DNA from: Pseudofabraea citricarpa | Taxonomy: Eukaryota > Ascomycota > Leotiomycetes > Helotiales > Dermateaceae | DNA: 64,000 nt | Assembly (NCBI GenBank): GCA_029641185.1 | Contig: JAPWGK010000005.1 | Coordinates: 310,001-374,000 of the forward strand | Direction: 5' to 3' | In this document: piece after piece, positions 7,373 to 52,207 of the stretch | Numbering within the stretch: position 1 is the stretch's first letter | How the letters are laid out: each line of letters starts with the position of its first letter | The notes under the pieces: generated by a model | Seen by the model: only the letters and a program-made list of their open reading frames with translations | What the model was told of the DNA's origin: nothing | The model's database searches: none | Program-made: the position numbers and the translations under genes

Positions 7373-10300
7373 TTACTTCAGATGGGCAGCTAGATCGTCC
7401 GTATATGTTCGGCAATTGTTCATAGTGTAACTGTACTTGCCCATAGCGTCAGCCCTGGCTAAAGCAATCTTTTTGATGTTTTCTTCTGTTGAGAAGATAG
7501 GGTTGATGGCCCCCTCATCAGTATACGCAGAATTAGCACCTTTATTTAACCACCAAGTTGAAGTCTTGGCAGATCGCGGTATCAAGACACACTTTTTGTC
7601 TAATGCAGGATCATTGGATGGAGCAACTGGGATGAAGTTAGTAATGATAAAGCTCAGAAGATAGAGCAACAACGATGACTTACTATCATATGGCCGTGCG
7701 ACGTAATTTCTTGTCCAAATCTCGTTTTGACCTGTAACCTTGCCGTTACAATCCTTAACGTCTTCGGTTTCTATCTTGACCGAGACGATCCCAACAACGA
7801 GCAGATAGTGCTCTGGAATAGGGACTAATCCGGTCGGTGGCCAGGCTTGCATAATCGCCCAACCATCGCCATCCTTCCATGCCTCGTTAGCCCTCTTGGC
7901 AGTCCGGACAAGAACTTTCATAGGGTCGTCGTCAACGTATTTTCTTTTGTTGGCTGCTGTAGCTGGTGGTGCCCTCTTGGCAAGTTTTGCCTTGGATTTC
8001 GTGCTACAAGACGGTGGCTTTTCACTTGTCTTCGGTGGGTTGTTGGTCTTGGCTGCAGGAATTTCTTTGGTAGGTGTTGCTGTCGGTTTGTCCATGCTCA
8101 CGGTGTGCTTCTTTCCAAATACTTTGAACTCGGCCTTACCTTCCTTCTCAATGCCTTTCACGCATCCTTGAATAATAGCTGGTGTAGCAGCAATTTCAAC
8201 TTAATAGCATGTCAGTGTGTAGTCCCCACAATAATAGAGAAACTGCTTTTCATATGCACAGGGTGACTTACTCGCATCTAAGATCTCACCGACGATTGGA
8301 ATTAGATCTTCCAATAGCTCTAATGGTAGAAGTAGAGCAGGGACTGCGACTCGACAGAATGCCTTTGCCGCTATGTCCAAAGCGACCTGCTCAGCAGCAG
8401 CTTCAGCCGCAGCCTTAGCCGCCTCCTTCGCTTTATCTGCAACTTCCTTTGCCAAAGTTGCTTTAGAAGGAGCAGGCTCATAGCCAGAACAGCAGTAACT
8501 CTGGAGTCCGCCATTGCAGGTCTGGTCGCCCTTTTTGCTGTCATGATTGTTCGTGTCCTTAACAAGTTCAGTCTCGCCATCGGCACATCCACTGGTACAT
8601 GCTAGCCCTGCACCTCGGAATCCACGCCATTGACACTTTCCAACGACAGTCGCAGATTCACAACACAGTTTGCGATACTCGCCTTTGGTACAACGATTTG
8701 CAGTGCTCAGCTGGCCTGGTTGGCCATTCATCTCGGCAATAGAATTGGTACCCACTTTGCATGGAGAATTGCAATCGCTGGTGTAGCAAGTAATACTTGC
8801 TTGTTGATCGGCAGATGCTTGCTTTGCACTGCTAAGCTGGTCCGATGAGACAACAGGAGCTGCACTGTATGAGCTTGAAGATGACTGGTCGATTTGATCC
8901 ATTGCCCAAACCATGAGCCCACCCAGGCATCGACTATTTGCAAAGTCTCGCTTCTGCTTGAATGTATCGGCATCATCATAAGACACCCACTGATTGCTAT
9001 CCCAGGTGATCCATTTGACACCGGCTTTCTGGTCATGCACGGGCTTCAGGCTCTTCGTTGAGATGATGTCGTTAATCTCCTGGAGATCAAGAATGCCCGC
9101 AGCATTGGAGCAAGGTCCAGCGTTGGCACCAGCGCTGAACTCACAAACCCCATTTGGAGTGTTACAGGAAGGGTCAACAAGAGTGAAACTTCGACCATAC
9201 CAACCTTGACCCATTACTACCTTGTCAGACTTTACTCCGGATCGCCAGATCAAATCCAACGCAAGATCAATCTCAGTGATGTTTGTATGAGGTGCAATGT
9301 AGGGACCAAGATTCTTAGAGTCTCTATCCCAAACACCATGAAGGTCGTAAGCCATGACATTGAACCAATCAACATTCTCTTCGAGACCTGCTAGATCAAA
9401 GTGCTGTAAGTACCAGTAGGATGTTGGAAGCGTAACGGTCAGTCCGTACTTTGACCCAAAAGCAGATTTCATGTCGGCTACTAGTGTCACATAATTGGCA
9501 ACATCGTCTTCGCTTCCGCCACGGTCATCAGCTCCCGGATATTCCCAGTCGAGGTCAACTCCATCAAAGCCATAAGTGCTCATGAATTTAATCAAACCAC
9601 TGATGAACTTTTGACGGTTTTCAGAGCTGCTGCTCATATCACTGAAAGCGGTTTGAGTGGCGCCAGGGTCGGTAAATGACCAACCACCAACAGAGATCCA
9701 TGTTTCCAAAGACGCTTTTTGGCTTTTCAATGCAGTGAAACGATGGTAGAGTGATGCACCATTCGCATCCATAGGAGTGATCTGGAAGGTTGTTGGATCG
9801 AAGAACGAGAAGGCGAAATTGATATGGGAGAACTGATCAACATTGAGGTCTTCGGGTGTCATGCTTTGGCATTTGCGAGTATTCGACCAAGATTCATAGT
9901 AACCGATGTTTCTCTTGGCTACACTGTTTCCTGAGCAGCTAGGTCTTGTAACATCACCACAGCCACCATATTGAGTGTCGCAAGTAGGATAAAGAGGATC
10001 ATCAGCGTTCTTCCAAGAACAGAATTCTGAAGTAGAACCACAGAATCCAAATTCAGAGCAGCAGACATTGAGAGGGCATTGTTGACTTCCAAGAGCTGCA
10101 TAAGGGCCACACTCAGCCTTTGCATCACCTAAGTATGTTAGCTTTTTATTTCAAGTCATAGTGAGTGGTGTCGAGATTTACAATTAAATTGACAGCCGGT
10201 ACCGCATGACTTATCCGAGTAGCCACAGAGATTATCACTTCCGCAACATGCACCATTGGCACATGGCGTGTCGGAATTGCAAGTACCAACTGGCAAATCT

Positions 10301-25843: not shown

Positions 25844-27978
25844 TCAACCAGCAGCATTTCTTCCTTGAGCGTCCTCCACAGCCTGTTGCCAATCTGCAGT
25901 GTAAATCACCCAAGCCTCGATGATTGCGACCCTGAAGAGTCTCTGTTAGTAATAATTTTACAAGGAAAGCGATTTTGAGCAAGAAAACTTACAATCCTAG
26001 CGCGATGGCGACACCGCTCCATAAACCCGAAAGTTCCCAGCCAAGACCAAAAGCAGTTCCGAAAGAGATGGGCATGGCGATAACATAATAGCAGAACAAA
26101 TTGACATAGCCGCCAATTTCTTGGAAGCCAAGTCCGCGAAGCAGCCCATTGCAGTTTGCGGTGAGGGCATCGAAGAGCTGGAAGGCTGCGCAGATAGGCA
26201 GGACTTGTGATACGAGATCAATGACGGCTGGGTCGTTTGTGAAGAGTTGAGGAATGACATTTCGAAGTGAGGATAGGAGGACCACGTTGAAAATCCCAAC
26301 GAACATTGCTACAACGAATGTCTGCTCTTGATTAGACACGAAACTCTTTTGTTCAAAGAACGGTGTTCACTTACCACTTTGGCGCTTGTCTTTGCAGCAT
26401 CGGTAAGGGTGGCTCCAATCAGATTTGCTACACGAGTTGATGCTGCAATTGAAATGGAGAAAGGGATTTGGAATGTTAGTGCTGTAACGGTACTGAGAAC
26501 ACTCTGTGCTGCCAGATGAGCCGTGGAGAAATAGCTTGCGGCTAGGGTCAAGACTTCAAAGGCCAAGTATTCAGCTTCGACCATCAAAAGACCAGGTAGG
26601 GCGAGTTTGATCATGGGACCTAGAATCTAAGTTAGACACCAACAATTTGTTTCTTACTGGTGATACACGTACCCCAGTTTTTGAATGCCTTTGTTGTCAG
26701 ACCATTCCAGCATTGACGCCCATCCACAAGGTAGACGTAAAGGAAGAGCATAAATGGCAACATATTATCAGTGATGGCTACAGCAATTGGAGCTCCGATG
26801 AAACCCCAGTTGAAATGCCATACAAAAAGCCAATTCATGAATGCATTAATTGGTGCTGCAATCAAAAGCACGTAGGTGGTTGCTGTAAAAAGACCCTGTG
26901 CTTGCACGAACCGCTTTCCGCCCTCAAACGCCGCATATCCTGGAGACCCAAGCAGTAAAATTCGCAAGTAAAGACCAGCGAGCTCCGCAGATCGCTTTTC
27001 TGGTACCATGTGCTCAAGAATTTTCTCCGCGCTCAGCCAAACTATGCCGATTGGGATCGTAAGCAGCCAGAGGAAGTAGACCATGCGTTGTAATTGGAGT
27101 CCAACTAGTTGCTTTTTCCCTGACCCGTACGCTTGAGCACATAATGTATCCAGACTCGTTGCAAGACCAGCGTAGATTGCGTATCCAGTAATATTTGCCG
27201 TCATCGAAGCTAATGACACTGCACCCAGTTCAAGCTTGCCAATATGTCCAACCGTAAAAATACTAGCAACCGTGAGCGAGTACTGTAGAACAAATGTGAT
27301 AACGAGGGGGCTCGAATATTGAACTAGTGTTTTTGTTTCTCGCTGCCAGGTTGTTTTGATTTTGCCAGCTGCAACTGCCTCCTCCCATTGTCTATTCAGT
27401 CTTTCGTGCTGTGTCCTAGCAGATTCGGGTGCGCTGTCTGGTAATAGGAGCGATGTTTCTGAGGGTTCAGTGGCAAACAATGGAGCTTCTTGATTTTCCT
27501 CGTCTCCTTCGCCTTTGGGTCGTCTTGGGCTGAAAGCCCATCGGTACATCTGACTCAATGCGCTGCGCTCCGTAGGCTGTGGATGTTTCGGTGGTGCTAA
27601 ATGATTATCTCTCAACAAACTCTCTTCTTCATGTCTCGATTGCTTTTTTTCCTTCTTGGTAAGATATGTGATATTGTCGTGTGGTGCGACTGTGCCTCGA
27701 GGTCCACCAAAGGCTACAAAACTCGGTCGTCTGTATGCGCTCTGCATTGAATGTGGGAAATCTTCAGGTCGTATCGTCGAAGCCTCCGAGGACTCTCCTT
27801 CGGAATTTGGGTCATCCTCAACTGCATCTCCGTCGTCGTCTGATGCATCTAACAGGTCCTGTTCTATGGAGGCTTGAGCGAGTGGGGAAGAGGACAGGAA
27901 AGATCTGCTGAATGGTGATCTGGAGACTGAATGGTCCCTCAGAGCAGGAGATTTGATTGGTTTGGGATTGGAAGGCAT
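25844..27978 (-). CDS. MATE-family multidrug/cation:H+ exporter
   Basis: Exons 27978-26673, 26619-26375, 26321-25993 and 25931-25844 (introns 53, 53 and 61 nt) give 655 residues. The N-terminal about 215 residues are polar, acidic and Ser-rich, likely cytosolic. Twelve membrane helices of the MATE fold follow, with the characteristic TLVQYSSPLVITFVLQYSL and, after the first intron, GPMIKLALPGLLMVEAEYLA and the GLLRGLGFQEIGGYVNL segment. Such proteins export drugs or metabolites against H+ or Na+; in fungi they are mostly vacuolar or plasma-membrane. The start is ATG 27978; the frame is open four codons further upstream but from TTG. All three joins keep frame and restore the family consensus. 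Divergent from the DUF202 gene over an 804-bp intergenic region. Confidence 0.92.
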
Positions 27979-28782
27979 GTTGTCAAGCAATTCCCAGAGA
28001 AAATTGTTTTCTTGTAAATAGGCTGTGGCTGCCTCCTACTCCCTCCGTACGTTACGGATTTGCCGATAACTAATTATGACTCCCCCACTTAACCCGCACA
28101 TGCAGAGTTTCCTCTCAATTATTTCGGTGCCGTAAATTCGACGAGCTGTAGGAAGTGAAGTATATGAAGAGAGGTGAAGCAGAGAAAATTCTGTCCGAAT
28201 GCTCTTATAGGAGAGAAGTGTGTAGAGGTTTGAGAAAGTGAGAAATTGTGAAAGAGCAATCAGAATCGCATGGACTTTCCCCACTGCAGCTTTGGCAGAC
28301 ACGCGAGATAAGGGTAGCCGCCGGATGCACGCTCTAACCGCTCTTAGAAGTTGGACCCGGCCGCCATCTGCACACTTACATAAGTTCTCCAAACTCCTGC
28401 TTCGTAGGGAACGCGAATGACAATCTGGACATCTGCTAGTGAGTCTTCTGATATCTTCTGGTCTGATCCGGTATGACTCAAAGTAGCAAACAAAAGGAAA
28501 CCTGCATCTACCTACAGTTCAGGACCTTGGTCTTCAGCTCTTGCATTTGGATCCGGTGCGAATGAGGAGAGCCTCGGCGAACAAGTTCGGACTACGGTAA
28601 GAAAATACGGTACAAGTGAGTACCGCGGAGCTGGAATAACTACTGATCCGAGCCGAGAGAGTTCGAGACGACCAGTTCGTCACGAGCTCAATTGCGAACA
28701 ATGGCTTTGATCCAGCGGAGAAGCTCGACGGGCTGTCCGACGCATCCATAACAACTGATTCTTCCAGCAGAACCACGCAAAC
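27979..28782. promoter_or_regulatory. divergent promoter region, MATE exporter / DUF202 gene
   Basis: About 800 bp between two divergently transcribed start codons. Small ORFs in it overlap on opposite strands and look random. No distinct motif stood out. Confidence 0.5.
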
Positions 28783-38664: not shown

Positions 38665-40489
38665 CTATTTTGACAACATGTCAACAAACTCCAACACAGC
38701 CGCGGTCGAGTCCTCGACTTCTACTGACACCATTCCATCTCTGATATAAGCCGTTTCTCCGACTGACACATTACTCAATTGCACAGGTTTGCCATCATCC
38801 AACTCATAATTATAGCTCCACCCATCCCAAGTGATTCCCGTAATTGCATCACTGCCATTGGCCAGTAGCCTTCTCACATCTACAACCTTAGCACCAGGTG
38901 CATCGATCTTAAAATTGTAAGTCCTTTTTGGTCGTGTAGTTGAAATGCTAGAACCATTGAACTCCCTCAAGTTGATAACAGCAACCTTCTTGATTTTCTC
39001 ATTAACATAAGCCACATAAGCTGCCTGATCAGTTCCTTCTAGCGGTAGATTAGATACTTTCACACTATTAAGTTCGTCGGTGAGATTCCCCAGGAAAGCG
39101 GCAACAGCGATGTTTCCGTAATAAGGGGCTTTGGTTCCGATGCTGGTCTTGTTTGTCGATACGGGCTGGAATGCTTGGTAGCGGTAATCAGTGCCTTGAT
39201 GCATATGCATCCTTTTGACTCCAATAGATGCTGCGTATAAACTGTAGTCAATTACCCAGAGCGCGGCACCGAAGGAATTCGAGAGCCCTGGTGTGCCTTG
39301 GTTATAAAGGGAATTCGTCTCTCCTAATACGTAAGGGATGCCGGTAAATGAGAGGTTTCTTAAGCGAGCTGCATGTGGCGTTAATGATGCTACAGTTGAA
39401 CTGTGATTTAGAAGAGAGTTTGCGAGCGAGATGCCAGGTTGTGTTGAGCTTCCAATATAGCTGTCAGACAAGTCAGTGGAAATGGCCATGCTGAATTTAC
39501 ACGAAAAAACATACTTGTGTATGGCAAGAAACTTAATGTCCTCATCTACATTCAATCCTAAAGTCTTGAACTCCACATAAGGATCCAGAATGAAAGGTGG
39601 GGCAACTAGAGAAGGTGCAAAGTATCCGATACTTGAATTTGCAAGCTTGGGACAAGCTTTTGCGATTTCGGCATTGATTGCTCGTGTTCCATTCAGCCAC
39701 TGGCTGACATACTCAACATCGTTCCATCCTGGAGGCCGTATAGCGCCCAGAGGAGTAACAGCATAGGTATCAGGTTCATTGCCGTATTCCCAAGCTATCA
39801 AGTTCCCATGACTGAGTGCTTTGCACGCAATTGGTGCCATGTCCATCAGAGATTCCCACCCTTTAGTATTGTTACCACCAAATGCTAAATTAAATCCGTG
39901 GGTGAATTTAGTGTTGGGCAGTGTGTTGTAGGACTCGAAAAAAGATGGTCCGATGTAGAGGGTGGTTGGGTAGTCGTCTGATCGTGCGGCATCATATGTC
40001 CCATTTGTGCTATAAGGTAAGCTTGCATTGTAAATTGCGTAGTCTTGAGTATTGCCACCAGTTCGGACATATGGTTTTGTTCCTGTCAAGTTACCAATGT
40101 TATTAAGAAGGTTGTCTGTAAATGTATTAGGCGACGAAGAATTGCCTGGTGTTTGTTAGCGATGTCTAAACTGCGCTGCAAAATAGTTGCGATATTCCAT
40201 GGATTCATTTTATAGTATATTCGAACACAAAGTTTTAGGTTCATAGGTAGTCTCTTCAAGTCTAAAAGCATACTTCAATACTTCAGACCCCGAGGATATT
40301 TGCTGCGTGTGACTAAGCGAGACAACTGGTCATACCTGCATAATCTGGGAGAAATGCAAATTCTATCGAGAAACTGACAAAGGCTTCGAGAGGAGCACCC
40401 GAGGAGTTTCTAGATGGAGCACTAGGGATTTGTATAGTACTTGACAGAGCAATACCGGCGAGGGCTAGCACAATAAGGGATTGAAACAT
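38665..40489 (-). CDS. secreted GH79 beta-glucuronidase/heparanase-like glycoside hydrolase
   Basis: Exons 40489-40336, 40145-39515 and 39460-38665 (introns 190 and 54 nt) give 526 residues. It has a signal peptide (MFQSLIVLALAGIALSS). The clan GH-A barrel has the acid/base Glu about 175 in AWEYGNEPDTY and the nucleophile Glu about 309 in YVLGETNSLYNQ. A beta-rich GH79 C-terminal domain follows (about residues 400-526). Fungal members remove glucuronic acid or 4-O-methylglucuronic acid from arabinogalactan or similar polymers outside the cell. The 54-nt intron is 3n and stop-free, so an unspliced product would carry an 18-residue insert after AIHK; splicing restores the family's AIHNY. Divergent from the SSADH gene. 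Confidence 0.9.
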
Positions 40490-51193: not shown

Positions 51194-52039
51194 GTTGCTA
51201 TTATATATCCTTCAATATCAATCGGGTTCTATATGCTGCCATCGTGCAACATTCTATTTCTACTTAATAAGGGAACGAGCTTTTACTGTAACCATCAATT
51301 TTCATATAGAATCACTTCTGATGTACCCATCTTGATATAAATTGTTTTTTTTTTTTCGGCTTCTACCAAATGCCCTTTTCCAGCTGTTGACGTAGTCACT
51401 CTACTAACCATGAACTCGCCGATTATAAGAAAGACGACACAAGGCGTACTTCTCAAAGTAATATGTCTATCTCCTGATTTACCCGTGGTAGCTCGCAGGT
51501 CCATATATCCCAAAATGTATATAGTCAGCCCTATTCCTACTCTCACAGAAGCAGATTATATACGTGTTCCTGCACGGCTATTATAATAATATCCAGCTCA
51601 TTCGGCTTTGACTCGACTATGTCATTCAGCTCCCTTTGCCTGTGCGGTTTGATTGACTTCCTTACTGGCATGGCAATAGTTTGTGCAGGGTCAATAAATG
51701 CCTTGATAGTAGGGTAGACTTTTCGGATTCGATTTTTTTGTAAAGTCTGGTCTTGAGCTATTGCACAAACACAGATAATATATATCGCTGCATGCTAGCG
51801 TTAAAGAGGCGCAAAGTATACTCGCCGTTGCCAGGATATTGATATCAAGGTGAGATAAAGTGCCGGGTATCGAGATTTTCTTGGCATCGCTGTTATTCGT
51901 TCGCTTCTAGAACTCATGTTGGCAATTCTTTTAAACTCTCGAAGATTGATGGGACATCCGTTTCTCGTGAAATTAAGCTCCACCAAAGGAAGATATGTAT
52001 TATGATAATCGTATACTTTCAACAAACAGTCAGAACATG
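51194..52039. other. AT-rich intergenic region
   Basis: About 850 bp between the MDR gene and the tRNA gene. Small minus-strand ORFs without features. Contains a T-run at about 51345-51357. No gene seen. Confidence 0.5.
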
Positions 52040-52197
52040 GTCGGGTGGTGTAGTTGGTTATCACATCTCGTTAACAGTTTGAACTGTTTCCGCTTCTTCA
52101 TTGAGCTACCGAGAAGGGTAAGTTTGGTCTCTGAGGATACAATTGAATCACGCTAACAGCAATGGGCAGTCCTGGGATCGAACCCCAGCTTGATCAC
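52040..52197 (+). tRNA. tRNA-Val (anticodon AAC) with a canonical intron plus a spliceosomal-type intron
   Basis: The acceptor stem GGTCGGG (52040-52046) pairs with CTTGATC (52190-52196) using G-U pairs; the discriminator is A. The D-arm is TGGTGTAGTTGGTTATCACA. The anticodon stem TCTCG/CGAGA (52067-52071 / 52111-52115) is perfect, with loop TTAACA + C and anticodon AAC at 52074-52076. The first insert, 52078-52109 (32 nt), is in the standard tRNA-intron position after base 37; AACAGTT of the loop/intron pairs with AACTGTT in the intron. The second insert, 52119-52170 (52 nt), starts GTAAGT, has CTAAC at 52153-52157 and ends CAG. Removing both leaves the variable loop AGGTC and T-stem CTGGG/CCCAG, 74 nt in all. 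The T-loop reads ATCGAAC (A at position 54, rare outside initiator tRNAs). No run of four T occurs inside. A TTTTT terminator follows at 52203. Confidence 0.85.
52119..52170 (+). other. spliceosomal-like intron in the variable loop of tRNA-Val
   Basis: 52 nt with a GTAAGT 5' end, a GCTAAC branch-like site at 52152-52157 and a CAG 3' end. It matches the length and signals of protein-gene introns in this window (46-64 nt). Its exact excision is needed to rebuild a standard AGGTC variable loop. Confidence 0.7.
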
Positions 52198-52202
52198 TGA
52201 AT

Positions 52203-52207
52203 TTTTG
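52203..52207 (+). terminator. RNA polymerase III terminator of tRNA-Val
   Basis: Run of five T starting 6 nt after the last tRNA base. Confidence 0.75.

Follow-up and report, generated by a model that had tools for sequence, protein, structure and literature searches.

A tRNA-Val(AAC) gene of the ascomycete Pseudofabraea citricarpa is interrupted twice, by an ordinary intron in the anticodon loop and by an insert in the variable loop that carries the signals of an mRNA intron. In textbooks, tRNA introns are removed by a protein endonuclease and a ligase, and the question raised by this locus is whether the spliceosome also takes part in the making of a tRNA. The gene lies in a 64,000-nt stretch of assembly GCA_029641185.1 (contig JAPWGK010000005.1, positions 310,001 to 374,000; C39:310001-374000 in our contig numbering), referred to below as the window, and the genome searched comprises 43,985,132 bases in 43 contigs. 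Here, we describe an analysis of this gene, of its paralogues, and of other small RNA genes in the genome. We present evidence that the 52-nt insert is very probably a true U2-type (spliceosomal) intron, within a tRNA gene that Pol III transcribes, and that the mRNA splicing machinery probably helps to make tRNAs in this fungus.

According to one paper, frequent interruption by an intron has so far been known among small structured RNAs for U3 and U6 alone, and the introns of fungal U3 snoRNA lie almost only in one 5' stem-loop (PMC5832005). Short insertions in the D or T arm of eukaryotic tRNAs are treated, in a 2014 review, as mostly pseudogenes, with algae and nucleomorphs as the exceptions; the tRNA introns of Cyanidioschyzon merolae are attributed there to the endonuclease and BHB, and the splicing mode in nucleomorphs is called unknown (PMC4090602). 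The main text of the latter contains no word beginning with "spliceosom", and among the openly licensed papers listed by our literature searches, none describes tRNA genes with spliceosomal introns in its title or the start of its abstract.

The Rfam tRNA model RF00005 recognized the gene in a 501-base stretch at 30.0 bits (gathering score 29, E 2.5e-4), and its alignment contains both an anticodon-loop insert and a large variable-loop insert. Over the whole window no RF00005 match was listed at the gathering score, and ARAGORN with bacterial settings found no tRNA there. The original prediction had placed the start of the tRNA-Val gene at 52040 and the variable-loop insert at 52119-52170; the gene and the 52-nt length of the insert are confirmed, but both coordinates shift one base to the left, whereas the 32-nt anticodon-loop intron lies exactly where it had been drawn. 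In our own numbering of tRNA positions the insert falls between 46 and 47. As had been foreseen, its removal leaves the variable loop AGGTC, and removal of both inserts leaves a 74-nt tRNA whose stems are complete when aligned to the model and to the paralogues. In its minimum-energy fold this 74-mer forms all four hairpins (acceptor, D, anticodon and T), with other pairs at their edges. By its sequence the gene possesses an A box, a B box, an upstream element and a T-run terminator; the predicted absence of TTTT from the insert and presence of TTTTT after the gene both held (Table 1). Between 51200 and 53600 there are five ORFs of 83-103 aa; no plus-strand ORF traverses the tRNA gene, and two minus-strand ORFs overlap its two ends. 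Neighbouring genes of the window at 8201-10150, 38665-40155 and 26632-28035, all on the minus strand, include one for a GH18 chitinase that has a chitin-binding domain, one for a protein with a GH79 C-terminal domain and one for a MatE transporter. The window also contains a histidine-kinase frame of 910 aa, with 70% identity to a Phlyctema vagabunda protein and 62% to one of Coleophoma crateriformis; most other named matches are from Leotiomycetes, which places the source in the Helotiales.

Table 1. Features of the interrupted tRNA-Val(AAC) locus, in positions of the window.
Feature	Position	Strand	Support or remark
Upstream CAACAAACAG element, of a kind common to many tRNA genes here; probable Pol III start region	52020..52029	+	
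tRNA-Val(AAC) gene, three exons, two introns of different kinds, 158 nt	52039..52196	+	RF00005; paralogues L002, L003, L145
Exon 1: acceptor 5' strand, D arm, anticodon stem 5' strand and loop	52039..52077	+	
A-box-like TGGTGTAGTTGG within exon 1	52046-52057	+	
Ordinary intron of the 37/38 (tRNA-endonuclease) type, 32 nt	52078..52109	+	Position and length alike in L002
Exon 2: anticodon stem 3' strand, AGG of variable loop	52110..52117	+	
Predicted mRNA-type intron in variable loop, 52 nt	52118..52169	+	GTAAGT..CTAAC..CAG; missing from L002, L003 and both L145 genes
Predicted 5' splice site GTAAGT	52118..52123	+	
Predicted branch site CTAAC; A at 52156, 13 nt before intron end	52153..52157	+	
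Predicted 3' splice site CAG	52167..52169	+	
Exon 3: variable-loop TC, T arm (A54), acceptor 3' strand, discriminator A	52170..52196	+	
B-box-like GGATCGAACCC within exon 3	52175-52185	+	
TTTTT, probable Pol III terminator	52202..52206	+	

The variable-loop insert has the marks of a U2-type intron: a GTRNGT-like 5' site, a YTNAY branch site, a terminal AG, and an intron-like length. The three signals singled out by the original prediction are all in place, including the second A of CTAAC 13 nt before the end. Its size, which had been equated with that of the mRNA introns around it, is similar to that of 15 introns predicted de novo in the window, which are 46-83 nt long (median 58); seven of the 15 begin with GTAAGT, in a set that is small, derived from reading frames, and chosen with a score that favours consensus sites.

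A survey for intact Val(AAC) genes, which had been recommended as a check, uncovered four without the insert (L002, L003 and two in L145), so that the window gene is the single insert-bearing copy among the five found. The closest comparison is L002 (C12:503106-503211), which in the genome search is 95% identical over query positions 1-79, with the match resuming at position 131. Its 39-nt first exon is identical to that of the window gene, its 32-nt anticodon intron differs by reading at four positions, and the sequence that directly follows this intron, CGAGAAGG-TCCTGGG, is an empty site without the 52-nt insert. By reading, the mature tRNAs differ at two of 74 positions, both compatible with the fold. 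The A54 of the T loop had been taken as a warning of decay; this is not supported, as A54 is also present in L002 and L003 (both L145 genes have T54) and so little of the mature sequence differs from L002.

Other tRNA genes were sought throughout the genome with RF00005, with B-box patterns and with short stretches. RF00005 gave 62 matches, with 63 of 1716 candidates scored; C36, a tRNA-rich contig of 55.9 kb and by our reading mitochondrial, accounts for 15 of the matches. Most of the intron-bearing genes came from a B-box pattern that demands TTTT within 40 nt and so overlooks any gene whose intron follows the B box; an Ala(CGC) gene (L144) was met by chance, outside this systematic pattern. 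A script parsed 83 distinct nuclear tRNA genes, identical duplicates counting as one and a few parses, among them those of L082 and of the odd-loop genes, being doubtful. Four Thr(AGT) genes fell outside the script because of a T-stem mismatch, and Ala(CGC) because it is spread over two sequence pieces; with these the count comes to 88 genes. Pattern matches judged unlike a tRNA were set aside from the start; L046, L052, L053, L110, L139, L140, L141 and L146 were left out after inspection as not being tRNAs, and L048, the L057 group, L078, L120 and L121 were likewise left uncounted. An anticodon-loop insert is present in 60 of the 83 parsed genes, the window gene included; four of these 60 are odd-loop genes. 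The odd-loop genes L025, L099, L103 and L106 are tRNA-like at 37-58 bits and have anticodon loops of at least 8 nt, for example TTTAACAA and TTTGATAA. L082 (C16:221700-222000) parses like a tRNA-Ile(AAT) with a 123-nt anticodon-loop insert that lacks GT-AG ends, possibly a mis-parse.

This survey revealed 14 mRNA-type inserts at 10 tRNA positions in 12 of the 88 genes. The eleven nuclear genes other than the window gene comprise four Thr(AGT), two Pro(TGG), two Glu(TTC), and one each of Pro(CGG), Thr(CGT) and Ala(CGC), and their 13 inserts, together with the 37/38 introns that some of these genes also have and with three introns in U6, strengthen the earlier suggestion that the window tRNA may need both the endonuclease and the spliceosome. 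In our assignment of tRNA positions, the inserts lie at 4/5 in Pro(TGG) L084 and L117, at 7/8 in Pro(CGG) L113, at 19/20 in Thr(AGT) L077, at 23/24 in Thr(AGT) L124, L127 and L128, at 33/34 in Thr(CGT) L133, at 49/50 in Glu(TTC) L134, at both 20a/21 and 49/50 in Glu(TTC) L138, and at both 15/16 and 67/68 in Ala(CGC) L144/L147. At nine of the ten positions they are clear of the A and B boxes, the exception being Ala 15/16 in the A-box region. An intron of the 37/38 type is also present in the insert-bearing Val, Pro, Thr(CGT) and Glu genes, and by reading in Ala(CGC), where ARAGORN shows the stretch in question as a long variable arm; the Thr(AGT) genes have none. Among paralogues the inserts occur in one of five Val(AAC), two of four Pro(TGG), and two of three Glu(TTC) genes, with empty sites shown for Val and Pro(TGG). 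The insert-bearing genes sit on seven contigs (C10, C12, C23, C28, C34, C39 and C43), and with 14 different inserts on seven contigs we reject assembly error as a general cause.

GT-AG boundaries can be placed in all 14 inserts so as to restore a tRNA. ARAGORN, run with an anticodon-loop intron of up to 200 nt (11 genes), reported five of the 12 unspliced genes and none with the right anticodon; after removal of the GT-AG inserts it found all 12, 11 of them with the expected isotype. The spliced window gene was typed Ser(act), like L002, which has no such insert. At least one standard tRNA finder thus mis-types genes of this kind, ARAGORN reading all four unspliced Thr(AGT) genes as Val or Ile. 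For Ala(CGC) it reported nothing unspliced and Ala(cgc) when spliced. G3:U70 is the usual Ala identity pair, and in the spliced Ala(CGC) it is formed across two exons, with one acceptor mismatch, U6-U67. Unspliced, L124, L127 and L128 matched the Rfam model at about 43 bits, L133 at 48.4 and L134 at 30.8; L084 and L117 gave partial matches of about 32 bits, L113 scored 23.1, under the cut-off, and L077, L138 and L144 gave no Rfam tRNA match at E<=1 or stricter.

The 14 inserts are 50-66 nt long (median 53), begin with GTAAGT (11), GTACGT (2) or GTAAGC (1), and end in CAG (10), AAG (3) or TAG (1); a YTAAY motif lies 8-25 nt before the end in 13 of the 14, the exception being the Ala 15/16 insert. 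Among 3,000,000 composition-preserving shuffles of 15 inserts (12 tRNA, 3 U6), 11 contained the combined 5' site, branch site and 3' site pattern, which was written after the inserts had been seen. The share of GTAAGT does not differ significantly between tRNA inserts and predicted mRNA introns (11/14 versus 7/15, p 0.13). YTAAY is present in 16 of 17 tRNA and U6 introns versus 5 of 15 mRNA introns (p 0.0005), an excess that is a lead only, the mRNA set being small and predicted.

The U6 gene bears the same kind of insert. Its single strong match, C2:955536-955687, reached 33.2 bits against an Rfam gathering score of 44, probably because of its inserts, and the next match 18.6 bits. With the sequence just upstream included (L044, about 1444-1710), it contains three introns of 55, 50 and 52 nt that share the signals of the tRNA inserts, their boundaries being set by eye. 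All 40 of the 5S rRNA matches listed are 119-120 nt long and uninterrupted, in a search that scored 47 of 1980 candidates and so favours intact copies; nothing thus indicates that such inserts extend to every Pol III gene.

These observations suggest the following pathway. A single precursor would be transcribed, starting at the CAACAAA element and ending at the T5 run. From it the spliceosome would cut out 52118-52169 in lariat form, while 52078-52109 would be removed by the tRNA-splicing endonuclease and ligase, the product being a normal 74-nt tRNA-Val. U6 and no fewer than 11 further nuclear tRNA genes, every Thr(AGT) gene found among them, would share this arrangement. We infer Pol III transcription, spliceosomal excision and use of the mature tRNA alike from the sequence; the spliceosome is the only known machine that appears to fit the inserts.

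Spliceosomal splicing is normally coupled to Pol II, and the intron-bearing tRNA genes might be transcribed by that polymerase, alone or within longer noncoding RNAs, then capped, spliced and trimmed to tRNAs. Introns 5' of the A box, which shift it 50-66 nt further from the transcript start, are indeed awkward for Pol III. We nevertheless consider transcription by Pol II an unlikely, though live, alternative, and the promoters speak against it. Of the 88 genes, 58 were listed for comparison. In 55 of these no intron precedes the A box, and 41 of the 55 have an upstream element of CAACAAA/CAAACA type, chosen by eye, that starts no more than 40 nt before exon 1; the corresponding share for 40-nt stretches drawn at random from the window is 5.5%. 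All three Pro genes with an intron before the A box have this element, 7-32 nt before exon 1, and one of the three introns contains a match as well, close to exon 2. Neither of the insert-free Pro(TGG) genes has such an element within 40 nt. The placement in the Pro genes fits a single transcript starting before exon 1. The genes end in T-runs, a weak argument because T-runs were partly a search criterion, and TTTT occurs in none of 17 introns (14 tRNA, 3 U6) versus 3 of 15 predicted mRNA introns, a difference that is not significant (p 0.09). Finally, U6 is a Pol III transcript, and it is known to have introns (PMC5832005).

The inserts might also derive from a currently active mobile element of the introner type that inserts into tRNA genes. 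The patchy distribution among paralogues and the two Thr(AGT) sites, 19/20 and 23/24, are compatible with such an origin and point to repeated gain or sliding. We judge it very unlikely, however, and the introner suggested earlier found no backing when the genome was searched for further copies, as had been advised. A 91-base query matched only itself at E<=10, and the first 19 bases of the insert, with up to three mismatches, occurred at 10 places versus 13 for a reversed control, only the window copy having fewer than three; in such searches absence of a match does not prove rarity, as the tool warns. The insert cores lack strong mutual similarity, the best of 136 pairs among the 17 introns reaching z 3.1, and by reading the filled and empty sites of the window gene overlap by only one base, so that neither a target-site duplication beyond that base nor terminal repeats are evident.

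Still less probable, in our judgement, is that the window gene and perhaps others are tRNA pseudogenes whose insertions only look like introns. With five Val(AAC) genes found, the window copy could be silent, and insertions in the D or T arms of eukaryotic tRNA genes, which mostly affect one of many synonymous copies, are taken as pseudogenes in the 2014 review (PMC4090602). Yet the window gene has lost no stems, promoter boxes or conserved bases, all 14 inserts have GT-AG boundaries that restore a tRNA, and every Thr(AGT) gene found has a D-arm GT-AG intron. With up to three mismatches allowed, a 30-nt pattern taken from the 3' half of Thr(AGT) occurs at exactly four places, all without mismatch, and its reversed control at none. 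A looser pattern, with up to 30 extra nt at the anticodon loop, occurs at 20 places versus 50 for its control; these comprise the same four genes, other tRNAs, Ala(CGC) and apparent chance matches. No further Thr(AGT) gene was seen among the 20 strings, with the surrounding sequence inspected at four of the 20 places; a Thr(AGT) gene whose T-loop differs or whose insert is longer would go undetected by both patterns.

The four Thr(AGT) genes are identical in their 72-nt mature sequence and one flanking base (73/73 in all six pairs) and share, by reading, one T-stem mismatch. The introns at their common site are identical at only 35/56, 37/56 and 39/55 positions (62-71%; 60 shuffled intron pairs averaged 0.35, with a maximum of 0.45). 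Identical exons flanking a diverged intron indicate selection on the mature tRNA. In eukaryotes the codon ACC is normally read by an A34 (inosine) tRNA-Thr, that is, by Thr(AGT) alone. That all four copies found of the normally sole ACC decoder bear the intron argues against pseudogenes and for spliceosomal removal. One weak tRNA-like gene, L106 (37.3 bits), parses with the anticodon GGT and could in principle read ACC; it was not counted as an ACC reader because it is weak and belongs to the group with odd anticodon loops.

The least probable of these readings assigns the inserts to the tRNA-splicing endonuclease, as non-canonical introns of the kind proposed for red algae; red-algal and nucleomorph tRNAs do have introns in the D, T and anticodon arms (PMC4090602). 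A four-pair central BHB helix was found in none of 15 inserts (the 12 tRNA inserts other than those of Ala, and 3 of U6), with slides allowed, in a simple geometric test. The GT..YTAAY..AG signals recur in the U6 introns, and the tRNA-splicing endonuclease is not known to need them. Furthermore, the window insert lies in the variable loop, away from 37/38, where the 52078-52109 intron does sit. Group I and group II introns are ruled out by the lengths of the inserts.

If the inserts are spliceosomal introns, as we favour, the spliceosome of this lineage is likely to be an obligatory tRNA-maturation enzyme, removing introns from the acceptor, D, anticodon, variable and T arms of tRNA precursors made by Pol III. 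The expected sole ACC reader, Thr(AGT), and U6 would then both depend on the spliceosome, and translation and splicing would therefore be mutually dependent. Some tRNAs would need both splicing systems on one molecule, and the spliceosome would be able to act on Pol III transcripts that are very short, fold strongly and lack both the cap and the Pol II tail. Such genes would offer natural tests of the coexistence of an intron with an internal promoter, and the presence and absence of introns among paralogues, together with the two Thr sites, would make intron gains and losses countable free of any reading-frame constraint.

Spliceosomal introns exist in the nuclear rRNA genes, transcribed by Pol I, of lichens and some other fungi. 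The inserts resemble these in being mRNA-type introns in an RNA not made by Pol II, but here the host is a tRNA rather than an rRNA. They share with the U6 introns of fission yeast and other fungi the short GT-AG form, the YTAAY motif and a small Pol III RNA gene as host; unlike those, they interrupt tRNAs of several isotypes, with an internal A/B-box promoter, a cloverleaf, and 37/38 introns alongside. Fungal U3 snoRNA is likewise a small structured RNA with spliceosomal introns; it is not a tRNA, however, and here the introns are spread over ten tRNA positions. From the canonical 37/38 introns, one of which the window gene also has, they differ in position, signals and presumed enzyme. In their D-arm, T-arm and other non-37/38 positions they recall the tRNA introns of C. 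merolae, nucleomorphs and archaea, which sometimes number two or three per gene (PMC4090602); the C. merolae introns are attributed to the endonuclease and BHB motifs, whereas those described here have GT-AG and branch-site signals.

Several further loci drew attention during the survey. Four tRNA-like genes, three in tandem at L057 (C7:82140-82681) and one at L078 (C11:111318-111363), have a D-like arm, a T arm, an acceptor stem and a GTCTTCGGA hairpin, and in place of a recognisable anticodon arm have stretches that vary in sequence and length; neither locus gave an Rfam match at the gathering score. L120 (C23:2266040-2266290) and L121 (C23:2280800-2281050) are related to each other, both containing CCAACTTACCCAGCG and a tRNA-like T arm; they likewise had no Rfam match at the gathering score and are perhaps an undescribed Pol III RNA. 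Finally, a four-gene tRNA-Arg block occurs twice in opposite orientation, at C12:2600-3950 and C12:113945-115290, as an inverted duplication.
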